This document shows positions 12,789 through 26,431 of a stretch of 29,224 nt of DNA, one piece after another. Within the stretch, counting starts at the first letter, position 1; every line of letters starts with the position of its first letter. This DNA is from a virus. The stretch lies in IMG/VR virus record IMGVR_UViG_3300002161_000021, positions 3,015-32,238 of that record; one strand, 5' to 3'. A program made the translations under genes and the position numbers. The notes under the pieces were generated by a model. The model searched no databases and was not told the DNA's origin. It was given only the letters and a program-made list of their open reading frames with translations.

Positions 12789-13238
12789 ATGAAAGTATTT
12801 AAGAAAACAAATGGGGAAAAGGTTAATGTGGTTGATCATACGCTTTCACAATTAAAAGAATCTCCTACAGTAACAATACATATCGGTACTGACTCTCAGA
12901 ATGTTGGCGAAAATACCGTGTATAGTACTGTCATCGCTTATCGTTTTGGAAGTAATGGTGTACACTATATTGCTCACACGGAAAAAGTTCCTAAGATTCT
13001 TGATATGTGGACACGATTGTGGAAAGAGGCAGAAATGAGTATTGAAACGGCAGAATGGCTAACACAACAAATAAGCGTTAAAGTTCAAATAGACATGGAC
13101 TATAACGGGGACGAAGAATATAAATCAAACAGATTAATTTCAGCTGCCAAAGGGTGGGCAAATAGTCTTGGTTATGCGGTGAATGTAAAACCTAATAATC
13201 AGATTGCAACTAGAGCTGCAGATTATCAATGTCGCTAA
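12789..13238 (+). CDS. RNase H-fold protein of the YkuK / DUF458 type
   Basis: A 149-aa protein with the YkuK-like opening VTIHIGTDSQN (Asp35 at the first acidic position of an RNase H-like strand), then TVYSTVIAYRFGSNGVHYIAHTEKV, a strand-turn-strand typical of this fold, and a later QIDMDYN with further acidic residues. Proteins of this group are predicted nucleases; activity is not established. The gene is embedded in the tRNA array, between tRNA-Trp and tRNA-Ser(GCT), with its stop only one base before the latter. That placement suggests co-transcription and perhaps a role in RNA metabolism, but this is inference. The ATG follows tttaagcc without a Shine-Dalgarno. Confidence 0.7.
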   Translation: MKVFKKTNGEKVNVVDHTLSQLKESPTVTIHIGTDSQNVGENTVYSTVIAYRFGSNGVHYIAHTEKVPKILDMWTRLWKEAEMSIETAEWLTQQISVKVQIDMDYNGDEEYKSNRLISAAKGWANSLGYAVNVKPNNQIATRAADYQCR

Positions 13239-13239
13239 T

Positions 13240-13327
13240 GGAAGGTTACCCAAGTTGGTGAAGGGGACGGTTTGCTAAACCGTTAGGTCGAGTAATCGGC
13301 GCGAGGGTTCGAGCCCCTCACCTTCCG
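13240..13327 (+). tRNA. tRNA-Ser (GCT)
   Basis: Acceptor GGAAGGT/ACCTTCC, discriminator G, anticodon loop TTGCTAA, class II variable arm, T-loop GGTTCGAGCCC. Last tRNA of the island; the following promoter-like site starts 3 bases after it. Confidence 0.94.
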
Positions 13328-13329
13328 CA

Positions 13330-19936: not shown

Positions 19937-20482
19937 ATGAAACATATTAAATTATTTGAAGAATTTGTTGTAGAAAAAAGTGGAGACTCTTATTCTTCAG
20001 GTTGTGTCATGCTATACTTTGACTTTCCACAAATAAATAAGATTCATGATGCAATTGATCCAAATGATTTATATGAAGAAGAAGGAGATCGTACCTTCGG
20101 TTTAGAAGATGAATCTCATGTAACTCTTTTATACGGTCTTAAAGAATCAGTTACACCTGAACAAGTAAAGGAAATTTTGGATAACTTTAATTTTGGTCCA
20201 TGCAAACTTTACAATGCTTCTCTATTTGAAAATGAGTATGACGTACTTAAATTTGATGTTGAAGGAGATTCTTTACATGAGGCTAATACTGCATTGAGAG
20301 AATTACCTTATGAAAATGATTACCCAGATTATCATCCACATAGTACTATTGGTTACATAAAGAAAGGATGTGGTAAAAGATACACTGAAATGCTAAAAGG
20401 TCAAGAATTTGATCTAACTCCAACATACGCAGTTTTTAGTCAACCTGATGGAACTAAAACAAAAATGAAAATAAAAAAATAA
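19937..20482 (+). CDS. 2H phosphoesterase-family protein with N-terminal tag
   Basis: A 181-aa protein with both 2H motifs: HVTLLYG (His61, Thr63) and HSTIGYI (His135, Thr137). The fold is shared by RNA 2',3'-cyclic phosphodiesterases, LigT and the phage anti-CBASS enzyme Acb1 of T4, which cuts cyclic dinucleotide signals. Either RNA-end processing or counter-defence is possible, and I cannot choose from sequence. The first 13 residues, MKHIKLFEEFVVE, are nearly the same as in three other proteins in this window and may target the protein to the virion. It begins 14 bases after the TS-family gene. Confidence 0.8.
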   Translation: MKHIKLFEEFVVEKSGDSYSSGCVMLYFDFPQINKIHDAIDPNDLYEEEGDRTFGLEDESHVTLLYGLKESVTPEQVKEILDNFNFGPCKLYNASLFENEYDVLKFDVEGDSLHEANTALRELPYENDYPDYHPHSTIGYIKKGCGKRYTEMLKGQEFDLTPTYAVFSQPDGTKTKMKIKK

Positions 20483-20495
20483 TTTTCACAAAATA

Positions 20496-20527
20496 TTTTC
20501 AATTCTCGTTTTTTTGTTTTATATTTA
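20496..20527 (+). promoter_or_regulatory. Promoter-like site upstream of the metallophosphoesterase-like gene
   Basis: TTTTC (20496-20500) and TATATTTA (20520-20527), followed by TAC, with 24 bases start to start. It lies in an 84-base intergenic gap and would start a transcript about 30 bases before ATG 20567. Confidence 0.6.
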
Positions 20528-20566
20528 TACTGATGGTATTATACTACCGTCCTAAAATAATATACA

Positions 20567-21106
20567 ATGGTAAATAAAGAATCCAACATAGATTTTTTTA
20601 TAACATCTGATACCTGGTTTGGAAGACCACAAATCTTAGAAGTCGCAAGAAGAACTCAGTTTTCATCTGTTGATGATATGAATGAGAAGCTTATTAAGAA
20701 CTGGAACAAACAGGTAAAGAAAGGCGATATTGTTTTCCATTTAGGAAACTTCGCATGGGATCCACAAACCGCCAAGAATGTACTTAAACGATTAAATGGC
20801 GAAATTACATTCTTAGTTGGTAATGCTGATGATGCTCTATTAGAGGTCGAACATGAGTTTGACAATATTACTGTTTTAGATGATCAGATTGTTGAATTAC
20901 CTCAATTTGATTCTGTTATTTGTCATTATCCATTAGAGGTATGGAATGGCAAAGACTCAGGAACTATTCACTTCCATGGTCATACTGTATTTTCACATAA
21001 GACTGATTTAAGGTCTTCTAATCGTGTTAATGCATGTACTGATTTTTGGAATTATGCACCGCTTAAATTTTCAACTATTAAAGATTTCATAAATGGCAAA
21101 AAGTAA
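20567..21106 (+). CDS. Degenerate calcineurin-like metallophosphoesterase
   Basis: A 179-aa protein with the overall pattern of small phage metallophosphoesterases (FTSDTHFGH...VYHLGDF...GNHD...CHYP...HGHxH). Several metal ligands are changed: Asp15-Thr-Trp17 where DxH is expected, GNF (Asn61) for GDF, GNAD (Ala87) for GNHD, and HGHTV for HGHxH (second His lost). His120 (CHYP) and His139 remain. It therefore probably lacks normal two-metal catalysis and may be a binding or regulatory pseudo-enzyme. The frame is intact and the gene has its own promoter-like site, so it is unlikely to be a decaying gene. It overlaps the sigma factor gene by 14 bases. Confidence 0.8.
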   Translation: MVNKESNIDFFITSDTWFGRPQILEVARRTQFSSVDDMNEKLIKNWNKQVKKGDIVFHLGNFAWDPQTAKNVLKRLNGEITFLVGNADDALLEVEHEFDNITVLDDQIVELPQFDSVICHYPLEVWNGKDSGTIHFHGHTVFSHKTDLRSSNRVNACTDFWNYAPLKFSTIKDFINGKK

Positions 21107-21728
21107 AACGTACAAGGAACTGGCAATTGAATTTAAAAAGACAAGATCAGAAAGAGTTTATAATGAACTCTACAAAAAAATGAGACCAGGTTTATGGTCT
21201 TATGTTAACAATATCGTAAAGGATCCAACGATCGCTGACGATATTACATCAACCACATTAACTACGGTCTATCTTAAGATTGATCAATATGATGAATCAT
21301 ATCAGATCACTACATGGGCATATCGCATTGCATATAATGAATGCATTGGATGGATTCGTTTCCGTAACAAAAAGGTAAGTATGAATGTGTTTACCGATGC
21401 TGGTGTTGAACCGCCATCAAAGGATTTAGTAATCTCTCATGATCTTGCTATTAAAACCGATGATGATTTCTGGGAAGAGGAAAACATCCTAGATGAACAG
21501 GTTAGATTAACTAAAGAAGCAATAAATGCATTACCTCCTATGTATAAGAGATACATGGTAGAACGATTTATTAATCATAAGTCATACGGTGATATCTTAG
21601 ATATTATGTCTGAACATGAGAGAGATATCAATTTACAAACCGTAAAGAATCGTATCTTTAGAGGTCGTAAAATCGTTAAGAAACAATTGGAGCAAATGAA
21701 ATTATTTTCAGAGCACCAATACATATAA
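21093..21728 (+). CDS. RNA polymerase sigma factor, ECF-like
   Basis: A 211-aa protein with region 2 (ELYKKMRPGLWSYVNNIVKD, then DITSTTLTTVYLKIDQYDES, then TWAYRIAYNECIGWIRFRNK) and region 4 (EAINALPPMYKRYMVERFIN, a DIL...MSE helix, and LQTVKNRIFRGRKIVKKQL, the helix-turn-helix for the -35 box). It is an ECF-type sigma with a longer acidic linker. It would redirect host RNA polymerase to a phage promoter class, the functional place of T4 gp55. Whether it reads the TTTTC/TATATTTR sites or TATAAATA is not known. Coupled to the preceding gene by overlap. Confidence 0.88.
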   Translation: MAKSKTYKELAIEFKKTRSERVYNELYKKMRPGLWSYVNNIVKDPTIADDITSTTLTTVYLKIDQYDESYQITTWAYRIAYNECIGWIRFRNKKVSMNVFTDAGVEPPSKDLVISHDLAIKTDDDFWEEENILDEQVRLTKEAINALPPMYKRYMVERFINHKSYGDILDIMSEHERDINLQTVKNRIFRGRKIVKKQLEQMKLFSEHQYI

Positions 21729-21739
21729 AAACCTATGTT

Positions 21740-22192
21740 ATGTACATATTTGATGTAATTAGTGAAATTAACATTTGGCGAAAGGTAAGAATTATCGCCA
21801 AAGAAAATGAAAAGATCCTGAATGAATCAGGATTCCGTGTAGATTGGATTGGACGAATCTATACAGTTATTAATCTTCCTGAAGAAGTGGTTAATCAACC
21901 TATTTCTAAAGAAGGCTATATTCTTATGAAGCTTAGAGAATATGATAGGTTGTTTCTTGATATGGGAATAGCCGATGCGATTGCACCAGAAATAGAAGAA
22001 ATTCCTGGAGCAGATGCTTACTTATTAATTCTTTCACCTGATAGAGATTACGTAAAACTTAAACCATTCTTGTGGTCAATGTTAAAGACAGGTGTACTAG
22101 TACTTGGCATTCGCATTGCTTACCTTATTATATCACACTATTGGTCTGGTATTGGAGGTTCATTAAGTAATTTAATTAACTTCATATTTTAA
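21740..22192 (+). CDS. Hypothetical protein with one C-terminal membrane segment, 150 aa
   Basis: Not recognised. Residues 1-115 are soluble, with NEKILNESGFRVDWIGRIYT and acidic, helical stretches. Residues about 117-140 (GVLVLGIRIAYLIISHYW) form one hydrophobic segment with a Gly-rich end, so it is likely a tail-anchored membrane or virion protein. It starts 11 bases after the sigma factor stop. Similar proteins are common near structural genes of T4-like phages, but I have no family name. Confidence 0.7.
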   Translation: MYIFDVISEINIWRKVRIIAKENEKILNESGFRVDWIGRIYTVINLPEEVVNQPISKEGYILMKLREYDRLFLDMGIADAIAPEIEEIPGADAYLLILSPDRDYVKLKPFLWSMLKTGVLVLGIRIAYLIISHYWSGIGGSLSNLINFIF

Positions 22193-22205
22193 ACCATGAT
22201 ACCTA

Positions 22206-22958
22206 ATGGCAACTTCAGAATCATTACAACAAACAGAAACGATAAATGGTAAGAGATACTATTTAATTGGAAAACACAAATATCCCTCAGTTACTACAGT
22301 TCTAGGTAGTATGACAGATTCATCAGGCTTAGATGTCTGGCGAAAAAGAGTTGGGGAAGAAGAGGCAGATCGTATTTCTAAGTTTTCTGCTAATCGTGGA
22401 ACTATCATGCATCAAATGATAGAATATTATTTAGGATCCACATTGGAGGGTAACCGTGAAAGACTACTCGAGGCACAGAGAAAAATTTTAGAATTTGTAA
22501 AGGAGGAAGGTTTCTCCGAAGAAGAACTTGACGTTGGTCGTAGGCTCTTTTACAGTTTTTATAACAACGGCTTATTTAATAAGATTAGCAGAGTTGTAAG
22601 TATCGAAGAGACGCTCTACTCCCACCAGATGGGAGGGTACGCAGGTAGGGTAGATAATATTTATGAGAATACTTTCTCCCATCTACTCATCTTAGATTTT
22701 AAGACTAGCCGTAAACAGAAAAAGAAAGAGTGGATTAAAAACTACTTTATGCAAATTGCTGCATATTTCTTAGCTTATTGGGAGATGCATGGTGTTAAAC
22801 CTGCCGGTGGAGAAATTTGGATAGCGGTTGAAAATGATGAACCCCAAGTATTTGAGGTTACATGGGAAGATATTCAAGTCTATGGTAAAGAATTTCTATC
22901 ACTTGTAAAAAAGTATCACGAACTTAACCCACTTCCACCAGAATATATAAAAAAATAA
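22206..22958 (+). CDS. PD-(D/E)XK nuclease, MGME1/Cas4-like exonuclease
   Basis: A 250-aa nuclease. The N-terminal part has YPSVTTVLG (26-34) and RGTIMHQMIEYY (64-75, with His69 and Glu73), the motif I region of RecB-type exonucleases. GGYAGRVDNIYE carries Asp150 and LILDFKTSRK carries Asp164 and Lys166, the PD-(D/E)XK core. FMQIAAYFLAY holds Gln183 of the QhxxY motif. Relatives cut single-stranded DNA ends in replication and recombination. It lies between a membrane protein and a group of tagged small proteins. Confidence 0.87.
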   Translation: MATSESLQQTETINGKRYYLIGKHKYPSVTTVLGSMTDSSGLDVWRKRVGEEEADRISKFSANRGTIMHQMIEYYLGSTLEGNRERLLEAQRKILEFVKEEGFSEEELDVGRRLFYSFYNNGLFNKISRVVSIEETLYSHQMGGYAGRVDNIYENTFSHLLILDFKTSRKQKKKEWIKNYFMQIAAYFLAYWEMHGVKPAGGEIWIAVENDEPQVFEVTWEDIQVYGKEFLSLVKKYHELNPLPPEYIKK

Positions 22959-22967
22959 GTTTAGGAA

Positions 22968-23255
22968 ATGAAATACATTAAAATCTTTGAACAGGTTGTA
23001 AACGAAGGTAAAATTGGAGATAAACTAACCGCATTATTTACTAAACAAACTGGTATTAAACTTAATGATGATGTAAAAGATAGTGAATATCCAGGAAAGT
23101 GGACGGTAACCAGGCTATGGGCACCACAAGATACTGGTGGAATGAATCCAGGTTTACACATGGAAATTACTAAAGGGAATACAACAGCGCACTGGATGGT
23201 AATGGATGATAAAGGAAAGCTAGCCGATAGCATGAAAAGAATTAAGAAGATATAA
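22968..23255 (+). CDS. Hypothetical tagged protein, 95 aa
   Basis: Function not recognised. It begins MKYIKIFEQVVNE, a variant of the 13-residue tag found in three other genes. The rest is a small alpha/beta domain with GKWTVTRLWAPQDTGGMNPG and HMEITKGNTTAHWMVMDDKG, a strand-turn-strand unit. Its stop overlaps the next start (TAATG), which is the next tagged protein. Confidence 0.75.
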   Translation: MKYIKIFEQVVNEGKIGDKLTALFTKQTGIKLNDDVKDSEYPGKWTVTRLWAPQDTGGMNPGLHMEITKGNTTAHWMVMDDKGKLADSMKRIKKI

Positions 23256-23743
23256 TGAAACACGTAAAACTATTTGAACAATTCGTTAGCGAAAATGCAA
23301 ATCAGTTGAACGAGTATACAACCAGAAATTTCAAAGTTGCTACTCCTGCTGTAAAGGATCTAAAGGGCGCAGAGAAATGGTTAAAAAAATACATGATTAG
23401 AACTGCAGCAACTACCGAAGAAGCAACCAAGAGAATTATGGGCTTTAATGGTGGAGTAATGTTTACTCATGTACAGTATCATATAGTTAAGCCTAATGGT
23501 AATAAACCTGATCGACCAACATTTAGATTGCACCAAAGCCAAGAATGGTTAAACGATGCAAATTTACAAGGTAGAGAAGAAGTAAATGCTACACTTTTAA
23601 GTATCTATCAATTAAAACCTGGCGAGGATATAAATACATCACAGGGAGATGCATGGGAATATGTTGGTGCAATCTATGTAGATAGTAAAGCATTCTTAGA
23701 TGAATTAGGCAGATCATTTGAAGTAATAAAAAGATCATCGTAA
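23255..23743 (+). CDS. Hypothetical tagged protein, 162 aa
   Basis: Function not recognised. N-terminal tag MKHVKLFEQFVSE, then Asn-rich linker residues and a globular part with KWLKKYMIRTAATTEEATKR and FNGGVMFTHVQYHIVKPNGN. No catalytic motif is obvious. Translationally coupled to the gene before; the next tagged gene starts 3 bases after its stop. Confidence 0.75.
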   Translation: MKHVKLFEQFVSENANQLNEYTTRNFKVATPAVKDLKGAEKWLKKYMIRTAATTEEATKRIMGFNGGVMFTHVQYHIVKPNGNKPDRPTFRLHQSQEWLNDANLQGREEVNATLLSIYQLKPGEDINTSQGDAWEYVGAIYVDSKAFLDELGRSFEVIKRSS

Positions 23744-23745
23744 TC

Positions 23746-23997
23746 ATGAAACACATTAAACTTTTTGAAGACTTTCTTGATGAAGCCCAACGACATAAAC
23801 CAGTAGATCACGTAGAGGATATTGAGGTTAAGGACAAGTCAAATCAAAAGGCTGAAAAAGACGCACAACATTATATTGATGACAATATAGAATACTGCCC
23901 TCGATGTGGTGAACATCAAGATGATTGTATGTGTGGCTCCGATGACCCATGGTCAACCCAGAATTATCACCGTGTGCCTAAAGGCAAGGTTGAGTAA
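23746..23997 (+). CDS. Hypothetical tagged zinc-ribbon-like protein, 83 aa
   Basis: N-terminal tag MKHIKLFEDFLDE followed by Ala, so the sequence LDE-A fits the (L/I)xE cleavage rule of T4-type prohead protease well. The body is charged, with EYCPRCGEHQDDCMCGSD, a CxxC plus CxC cluster (Cys51, 54, 61, 63) that could bind zinc. Third in a row of tagged genes; role unknown. Confidence 0.72.
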   Translation: MKHIKLFEDFLDEAQRHKPVDHVEDIEVKDKSNQKAEKDAQHYIDDNIEYCPRCGEHQDDCMCGSDDPWSTQNYHRVPKGKVE

Positions 23998-24023: not shown

Positions 24024-24311
24024 ATGAATAAAATTAATGCATTTTTCAAAGAACATGGTAGTAAAGTAATTACTGTACTTTTAATTTTACTTTACCTTAA
24101 ATCATGTGGAGTTGATAGCGAACTTAACAGACTTAAAAAAGAAGCTAAAGCTAATTCTGAAATAATTAAGTCTTTACCATCTGCTAATGATTTAAAAATC
24201 GAAGGTCTTAGCGCAGAGAAAAGAATGATCCAAGCAACGGATCGTAAAATGTTAGATGTTCAACGTCAAAACGAAATTGAAAAAGAGATAAAAAGATTAG
24301 AAGGTAAGTAA
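24024..24311 (+). CDS. Membrane-anchored coiled-coil protein, 95 aa
   Basis: Not recognised. A short polar N-terminus, one hydrophobic segment at about residues 14-28 ([16 protein letters not shown]), then a charged helix ([35 protein letters not shown]) likely to be coiled coil. Topology resembles spanin or inner-membrane phage proteins, but position beside the fibre gene gives no clear role. Its stop overlaps the next start (TAATG). Confidence 0.65.
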
Positions 24312-26431
24312 TGGCAAATATCATACCGGGGGTACCAACACCAAGCGATCCAAGCTGTGCATTAACTATATGTGGTAGCATAATAGCACAAGTAGATTGT
24401 ATTAAGTATATAATGCAAGGTACTTCTGCGTGTATTGATATTCAGTTTTTTGGTTCTGATGAGAAGCCTCTTGATTTAGATCGTTTTTGCGATATTCAAA
24501 TTCAATTAACAAATGAGTTTGATTGTGTTGTCGCTAATTTCTGGTACCCAGGAGTACCTACGGGTTCACGAGGATTTGATATTGAAGTTCTTCAGTATAC
24601 AACAACCGGCGGACATATAGTTAATAAAGGACTTCTTAGAATATGCTTATCTAACAATTGTACTTTAACTTCTCCTGGTGCAATTTTTGCAGAAATTCTT
24701 TTAAGAGAATGTCTGTTAACAGGCGAGCAAGGCATTTTAACTGGGGTACCAACCCCAACAGAGTACGGAGAATCTTTTGGTATTCCTTGTTTACAAATAG
24801 CAAAGATAACAGAATCAAAGATAGCCAAGAACGGTGGCGGTGGAGGTTGCTTTCCAGGATACATACCACCACAACCTGGTAGTACTGGGCTTGGGTTTGC
24901 AATAGGATCAACTGGAGCCACAGGCTTTCATGGATCAACAGGATCTACTGGGTCACAAGGTAATATAGGTGCAACCGGTAGCGGCGCAACTGGTGCAACT
25001 GGTGCAACTGGAACCCAAGGATTTATTGGATCAACTGGCGCAACTGGTAATCAAGGATTTATTGGTTCAACTGGAGCAACTGGTAATCAAGGATTTATTG
25101 GATCAACTGGAGCAACTGGTAATCAAGGATTTACTGGTGCAACTGGAAATCAAGGATTTGATGGTTCAACTGGTTTAATCGGTTCAACTGGCCCACAAGG
25201 TGCAGGTGGTACCTTAGGTTATTGGGGTAGCTTTTGGAGTACATCAACACAAAATAATGGAGGTGCGACTGTTGCTAATGTAATGACATTCAATAACACC
25301 GATCCAGATTCAAATGGAGTTTCTATACAGAATAACAGTCAGGTTACCTTTGCATACGATGGCGTTTATAATATTCAGTTTTCTGCACAGTTTGATAGAA
25401 CGAACATTTCAAACCTACCACCAGAGCGTAAGATTGATATATGGTTTGCCAAAAATGGTATTAACATACCAGATTCAAACTCGACGGTAGTAGTTCCAGG
25501 TCATCCTGTATTACCTGCATGGAATTTCCAATTAAAGTTAGATGCAGGTGATTATATTGAACTCTATTGGTCATGTCCTAATATTAATACTGCGGCTGTA
25601 TATGTTCCTTCTAATATAGCACCTACTCGTCCAGCAGTACCATCTGTAATTTTAACTGCACAGCAAGTAACATACACGCAGAAAGGATCAACTGGTGCAA
25701 CGGGTTCACAAGGTGATATTGGAGCAACCGGTTCACAGGGTAATCAAGGTGATATTGGTGCAACTGGTAATCAAGGATTTATTGGAGCAACTGGAAATCA
25801 AGGATTTATTGGTTCACAAGGTGATATTGGTGCAACTGGTTTACAAGGATTTATTGGAGCAACTGGAAATCAAGGTTTTATTGGTTCAAGCGGTTCACAA
25901 GGAACTGTTGGTTCACAAGGTGATATCGGCGCAACTGGTGGAATAGGTTTTACTGGATCAACTGGTCTTGGATCAACTGGAGCAACTGGCAATCAAGGAA
26001 ATATTGGTGCAACTGGACCTGCTACGTCACTCTATTTGCTTGAAGCGTATGCAGATGTGACATACACTTTACCGGGAAGCTTTACTGAAGATCCCTGTAG
26101 ATATAGTGTTGTGAGTAATACGGTCAATGTTTCAAGTGCATGGTTCAATACTTCAACATATAGATTTACGCCTCAAAAAGCAGGTTATTGGGAAATTACT
26201 GCATCATATGATGTTTATAGAAACGCTGAAGCAAGTATGGCAATTAAGAAAAATGGTAGTATCGTAGCAGCTGCCGGTTCTTTTAACGCGGTGGCTCAAC
26301 AAATAACAAAAATTGTGTATCTAAATGGTTCAACTGACTACATAAACATCATAAACGTTGGACAGGTTTCAACTTCAAGAGCACAATATGATAGTAGGTC
26401 CTGGTTCCAAGCTAGATGGGTAGGCGAGTAA
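24311..26431 (+). CDS. Collagen-like tail fibre or adhesin, 706 aa
   Basis: Domain order: an N-terminal beta-rich region (1-195) with several Cys, probably for attachment to the virion; collagen-like Gly-x-y repeats at about 198-298 (units such as [12 protein letters not shown]); a C1q/TNF-like globular domain at about 300-455; a second Gly-x-y block at about 457-571; and a C-terminal C1q-like jelly-roll (about 575-706). Collagen stretches give trimeric rods, and C1q-like heads are common receptor-binding tips in phages. It likely acts as a fibre or head decoration that contacts the host. Repeat-rich, so length is likely to vary among relatives. Coupled to the small membrane protein upstream. 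Confidence 0.82.
25018..25150 (+). repeat. 36-bp tandem repeats in the fibre gene
   Basis: At least three nearly perfect copies of a 36-bp unit encoding [12 protein letters not shown], differing mainly at third positions (for example ggattcaac/ggatcaac), followed by shorter variants. A second, less regular repeat block lies at 25683-26025. Such DNA favours slippage and recombination. Confidence 0.85.

Follow-up and report, generated by a model that had tools for sequence, protein, structure and literature searches.

Four open reading frames in the 29,224-nucleotide stretch of DNA analyzed here (the window), which belongs to an uncultivated T4-like phage, share a common start of 13 residues, MK[HY][IV]K[LI]FE.[FV][VL].E, with unrelated bodies behind it. 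We consider it highly probable, from the sequence, that this start is a capsid-targeting propeptide of the type found in phage T4 (CTS), which would be cut after Glu13 while the cargo is kept in the head and enters the next host. As far as sequence can tell, this is a T4-CTS-type system in a form that we did not find in the published work searched, and far more genes carry such a leader than in T4. All four ORFs lie on the + strand, start with ATG, and encode Glu at residues 8 and 13:

19937..19975, + strand: leader MKHIKLFEEFVVE of the 2H phosphoesterase, 13 residues, predicted cut after Glu13
19937..20482, + strand: tagged 2H phosphoesterase, 181 aa, HxT/HxT tetrad H61 T63 H135 T137
22968..23006, + strand: leader MKYIKIFEQVVNE, Val in place of the second aromatic
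22968..23255, + strand: tagged 95-aa protein, basic, pI about 10, no family
23255..23293, + strand: leader MKHVKLFEQFVSE
23255..23743, + strand: tagged 162-aa protein, basic, pI 9.2
23746..23784, + strand: leader MKHIKLFEDFLDE, next residue Ala, like T4
23746..23997, + strand: tagged 83-aa protein, acidic, with a Cys-rich CPRCG...CMCG motif

A first-pass annotation had described four unrelated proteins with a common N-terminal tag containing Glu8 and Glu13, and the ORFs, positions, and N-termini proved to be as quoted there. The pattern M[KR]x(1-6)[FY]xx[FYWVLI][ILVM]xE, which retrieves IpII and IpIII from T4 as a positive control, matches 4 of the 42 called genes in the record from which the window is taken (G000, 32 kb). 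After permutation of residues 3–16, the mean number of matches is 0.07 and the maximum is 1. None of the 13 internal MK/MR sites of this record match, and a check of all window ORFs found no tag besides these four. Three of the window tags also match the strict aromatic-pair form of the pattern; the 22968 leader, with Val10, fails and is the weakest of the four. In a structural model of the 2H phosphoesterase, residues 1–16 have pLDDT values below 50, as for a disordered tag. The G006 ortholog of the 23746 protein carries the variant tag MKHIHSFEVFVTE. Judged by eye, the Cys-rich motif of this protein possibly binds zinc; the Pfam matches of the 23255 and 23746 proteins (PSD13_N, zf-C2H2) were dismissed as chance.

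Residues 4 and 7 of the T4 CTS (Tyr and Phe in MKTYQEFIAE, which is followed by the cut and Ala) serve targeting, residues 8 and 10 (Ile and Glu) serve processing, and the cleavage motif of gp21 is L/I-x-E (PMC9026906). The annotation of X04567 likewise places the cut of IpII after residue 10. When the leaders are aligned at Glu, residues F7, F10, [ILVM]11, and E13 of the tag correspond to Y4, F7, I8, and E10 of T4 with equal spacing. Because representatives of the tagged proteins were chosen on residues 1–10 only, with one per body family (n = 81), residues 11–13 provide an unbiased test of this layout. Glu occurs at residue 13 in 64% of these families compared to 8% in the background, and the combination of [ILVM]11 with E13 occurs in 57% compared to 1.8%, a 32-fold enrichment. 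The commonest residue at position 12 is Asn. The aromatic pair F7/F10 is present in more than 90% of 150 diverse tagged proteins, a set that was partly selected on this pair. About 36% of the 81 families are without Glu13, and 28% are without any [ILVM]xE in residues 10–25, so that some tagged proteins may be targeted yet uncut, or may not be substrates.

The earlier suggestion that LFE or IFE at residue 8 and LDE-A at residue 13 both fit the gp21 rule holds for Glu13, which aligns with Glu10 of T4 and with the corresponding Glu of other leaders. It does not hold for Glu8, since other tags in the wider sets have Val, Asn, Thr, or Asp there, and we rejected a cut after Glu8 as the main site. 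At P3, Val takes the place of Leu or Ile in three of the four window tags (V-x-E three times, L-x-E once). The lack of conservation at residue 8 suggests that cleavage most likely occurs after Glu13. A related motif, L-[NY]-E, is found near residue 46 of the capsid proteins in the clade of the window, in five of six to six of seven genomes (kept in G001, G009, G012, G013, G014, and G025; absent from G020), and resembles the FLNE form of the tags.

Tagging extends far beyond the four window proteins. A DNA pattern for residues 1–10 matches at least 117 stretches in IMG/VR and a variant of it matches 33 stretches. In 257 Gb of prokaryote genomes the residue 1–10 pattern found three matches, two of them in Bacteroidetes/Flavobacteriales MAGs. 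Single linkage groups 315 tagged ORFs into 168 body families. The first-pass annotation had proposed looking for more tagged starts in whole phage genomes, and the strict 13-residue DNA pattern indeed occurs up to 24 times per genome (G013), followed by G015 and G029 (21 each) and the 462-kb phage LR756500 (20), with gene totals that are approximate because ORFs in these scans were called crudely as the longest ORF in a greedy manner. The reversed pattern gave no match in 28 of 28 records. The densest array seen, in a 14.8-kb stretch (L172), has 15 tagged genes in 9 kb. The strict pattern is absent from immuto, T4, PTm1, MA9V-2, Lak-A2, and Molly. We found no cultured phage with the 13-residue tag by tblastn with a doubled tag or by scanning immuto, PTm1, MA9V-2, Lak-A2, and Molly, and a literature search on the tag brought up only unrelated text.

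The window contains tail genes, a topoisomerase pair, ThyA, PhoH, a tmRNA, and 22 tRNAs, and its record ends ahead of the head module. The tmRNA (9470–9875) encodes the tag GNTELAMAA and is followed by the 22 tRNA genes (10135–13328), which cover nearly all amino acids. Shortly downstream of the tagged gene cluster, positions 24311–26431 encode a 706-aa protein with long collagen-like GATG/GxTGATGxQG repeats. Relatives were found via ThyA, and two of them, G001 (140 kb) and G003 (118 kb), contain head genes for a portal, an S77 prohead protease, and a Gp23 capsid protein. The number of tagged genes by regex is eight in G001, six in G003, eight in G004, and four in G006. Directly after ThyA the window encodes the tagged 2H enzyme and both G001 and G003 encode an unrelated tagged protein of 316 aa, so that unrelated cargo occupies this slot in different genomes.

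An S77 protease is encoded on 17 of 30 tagged contigs; among contigs of at least 180 kb only G011 is without one, and the 13 contigs without this gene may be incomplete. In tagged phages the protease is part of an open frame of about 600–770 aa, in which it precedes a scaffold-like part that usually has 14-residue repeats of the form YSEYLAENLDKSI. Examples of this fusion (L019:1435–3162, L200–L216) usually contain 6–14 such repeats in tandem. The huge phages LR756501 (735 kb) and LR756500 have the same architecture, the latter with fewer repeats. In three genomes a tagged acidic gene of 118–130 aa (tag MKTYIKTFEQFIFEN in G025, KLIKTFEQFIFEA in G012, and MKIYNTFESFIKEA in G014) lies between the portal and protease genes, which is the place of gp67/68 in T4. 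In G020 tagged genes adjoin the protease gene.

The leader is exchanged between clades. Orthologs of the window 2H enzyme start with MKHIKLFEEF, MIKLxxLLKE, MESQEFKRMQELAGIIVEE, or MIKKFTEFVNE, or have no leader at all (MSEKQTYDYGCVMLYF). In the leadered orthologs a hydrophobic-x-Glu motif falls at or beside one alignment column, and the leaderless orthologs start just past this column, hence immediately behind the predicted cleavage site. A homolog of the 23255 protein (L300, 8180-) with the leader MIKLKQILKE is encoded in the head cluster of the T4-like phage G069, between scaffold and protease. Thus, two cargo families of the window (2H and 23255) swap leaders by clade while [ILVM]xE is kept at the junction. 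In the sister clade with MIKL or RMQ-LAG leaders the protease is unfused and about 200 aa long in all five phages where it was found. The 13-residue tag is absent from the two sister-clade genomes counted (G059 and G060), and the MIKL leader is absent from the tag phages G001, G003, G004, and G006. The fusion state of the protease and the distribution of leaders indicate that leader type goes with core type. A 635-kb huge phage (L219:3944–5257) encodes a 2H phosphoesterase with a T4-like leader, MKLKKYKQFIKE, fused to an exonuclease-like domain.

The scaffolds of immuto and G060 have C-termini (SEQVSRWQKLAGIIK and EAFLRMQKLAGII, respectively) that match the leader [F/L]xRMQxLAGII/VxE of the same phage. 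The scaffold ranks first of 214–227 proteins for four immuto/G060 leaders, and none of 1000 shuffled leaders reached the score. The immuto proteins gp230 (L014 25061) and gp083 (L016 11675) carry a leader with QFxRMQxLAGIITE, which is nearly the C-terminus of gp067 (L016 25626), a likely scaffold annotated as "DNA polymerase phi-like". A 474-aa protein of G060 (138667) combines the leader MKLTDILHE with a C-terminal YRMKKLAGL that resembles the scaffold tail and is possibly a C-terminal tag. In the clade of the window, N-termini and the protease-scaffold account for 9 and 7 of the 24 occurrences of [FY]xx[FY][ILVM]xE in G001, and for 6 and 8 of the 21 occurrences in G003. A search with a PSSM of the tag did not rank the scaffold repeats of this clade highly, and by local alignment the scaffold ranks first for three of seven G001 leaders and for none of four G003 leaders. 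By the same measure, T4 gp22 reaches only rank 17 of 250 for the T4 CTS, and for MIKL-like leaders the scaffold ranks 1, 7, 10, and 47. Mimicry of scaffold repeats in the clade of the window is therefore only partly supported: the likeness consists of the aromatic pair and hydrophobic-x-Glu, and fails by PSSM and local alignment. Scaffold mimicry is a matter of sequence similarity for the one leader type of immuto and G060, and an idea for the others. As a tentative generalization, which we hold to be somewhat less probable than its opposite, leaders might mimic their own scaffold (the C-terminal FxRMQKLAGII in immuto and G060, possibly an N-terminal DLLKE, and possibly the YxxY[LIV]AE repeat in the clade of the window) and add a protease site, thereby loading tens of cargo proteins, some of them inhibitors of immunity based on nucleotide signalling, into large and huge Bacteroidota-type phages to act before phage gene expression.

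The prediction that one of the tagged proteins is a 2H phosphoesterase is supported by Pfam and PHROG matches (Acb1, 2.3e-5; also 2_5_RNA_ligase2; phrog_755, 9.5e-11), by the HxT/HxT tetrad, and by the modeled fold. The Acb1 match scores 24.6 bits, below the Pfam cutoff of 27. Of 26 homologs at E 0.01, 25 match Acb1 and all 26 match 2_5_RNA_ligase2. The tetrad is invariant and equals that of Acb1 (PMC9117128). The model (pLDDT 87.6) has a 2H fold that matches Acb1, Usb1, poxvirus cGAMP phosphodiesterase, and LigT, with Acb1 as both the best sequence match in the PDB and the best-ranked fold match. Homologs of Tad3, a Thoeris inhibitor by its Pfam name, occur in 4 of 39 tagged records, all with a leader (that of G023, MKKIKLFEEFLTD, has Asp at residue 13). 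In three of these four records a tagged 2H enzyme is encoded within about 1.2 kb of the Tad3 homolog. A tagged Zeta_toxin-family kinase (L117:7016–7732) lies near tagged Tad3 and 2H phosphoesterase genes. Other cargo in the relatives includes nucleotidyltransferases and proteins with lysozyme, PAP2, or GNAT domains; most have no family. Domain names and one fold point to a putative anti-immunity role for such cargo.

The genomes themselves show a leader common to unrelated proteins, the arrangement of its residues, its specificity for phages, and its exchange as a module; in relatives they also show it on genes of the head module, and they show the protease. From these we infer recruitment, cleavage, ejection, and an early counter-defence role for much of the cargo. 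Late in infection, the leader would recruit unrelated cargo into the prohead core. The gp21-type (S77) prohead protease would then cut after Glu13 ([LIVM]-x-E), the leader would leave, and the mature cargo would remain in the head alongside the DNA, to enter the next host cell afterwards. The initial proposal of a T4-type capsid-targeting signal agrees with the layout, the enrichment of Glu13, the phage specificity, the co-occurrence with the protease, the tags in the head module, and the clade-wise swap of leaders.

The shared start could instead be another localization or docking signal, for a membrane, a replication compartment, or a host factor, that resembles a CTS. Many tagged genes are indeed far from head genes and part of the tags have no Glu13. 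Yet hydrophobic-x-Glu is enriched at the cut position, tagged genes lie between portal and protease, leader type covaries with protease and scaffold type, the leader of the sister clade copies the scaffold tail, and the tag is charged and without a signal-peptide core. We therefore regard such a signal as improbable. Still less credible is that the four genes are diverged paralogs with the tag as a remnant of common ancestry. Three of the four are adjacent (22968–23997), but the many tagged body families are unrelated, and 2H bodies of one family are found behind four types of leader or without any. Nor do we give more weight to a nucleotide feature, such as a signal for translation initiation or in the mRNA, as the source of the shared N-terminus. 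Such phages often have AT-rich early codons, but the four window tags differ at synonymous sites, so they are not a recent DNA copy. Across 124 tagged families most fixed tag residues are encoded by several synonymous codons, which suggests that selection acts on the peptide, and conservation up to residue 13 exists at the amino acid level only.

A more serious alternative, although still an unlikely one, accepts packaging and assigns most cargo to structural core filler comparable to T4 gp67/68, rather than to injected counter-defence enzymes. The tagged genes of the head module are small and acidic, as is the 23746 protein, and most cargo is without assigned function. On the other hand, among the cargo are folded enzymes whose catalytic motifs are intact, as well as Tad3 homologs, nucleotidyltransferases, and a Zeta_toxin-family kinase.

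The capsid-targeting propeptide proposed here shares with the CTS of T4 IpI–III and Alt its N-terminal position, the MK start, an aromatic pair at i/i+3, hydrophobic-x-Glu before the cut, unrelated mature bodies, and a gp21-type protease, known in this case from the genomes of relatives. In contrast to the T4 CTS it comprises 13 instead of 10 residues (consensus MKHIKLFEEFLNE), allows Val at P3, and occurs on up to 24 genes per genome, whereas T4 has three regex matches. As with IpI* (an inhibitor of GmrSD) and Alt, which T4 packages and injects as effectors, the tagged cargo is proposed to affect the host immediately; unlike these two, the predicted cargo includes, in the window, a 2H phosphoesterase and, in relatives, Tad3-like proteins and nucleotidyltransferases. 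Head proteins of phiKZ and SPN3US also have leaders that the prohead protease removes after Glu from many ejected proteins. These propeptides are mostly much longer (PMC5694885), have no short shared leader, and belong to different phages. The window enzyme resembles the anti-CBASS protein Acb1 (T4 57B) in its 2H fold and HxT/HxT tetrad. Acb1 activity in T4 infection appears from about 15 min (PMC9117128); in contrast, the tagged 2H enzyme would reach the cell together with the DNA.

Since the leader and the scaffold tail match each other in the related clade, the binding partner of the T4 CTS in the core, an old question, becomes directly testable. If the capsid-targeting reading is true, the tag would also provide an address peptide with which phages other than T4 could be loaded with proteins. 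Furthermore, this 13-letter code would reveal, among the many uncharacterized genes in T4-like and huge phages, those whose products are carried in the head and injected, and would directly yield candidates for immediate-early counter-defence proteins together with their predicted mature N-termini.
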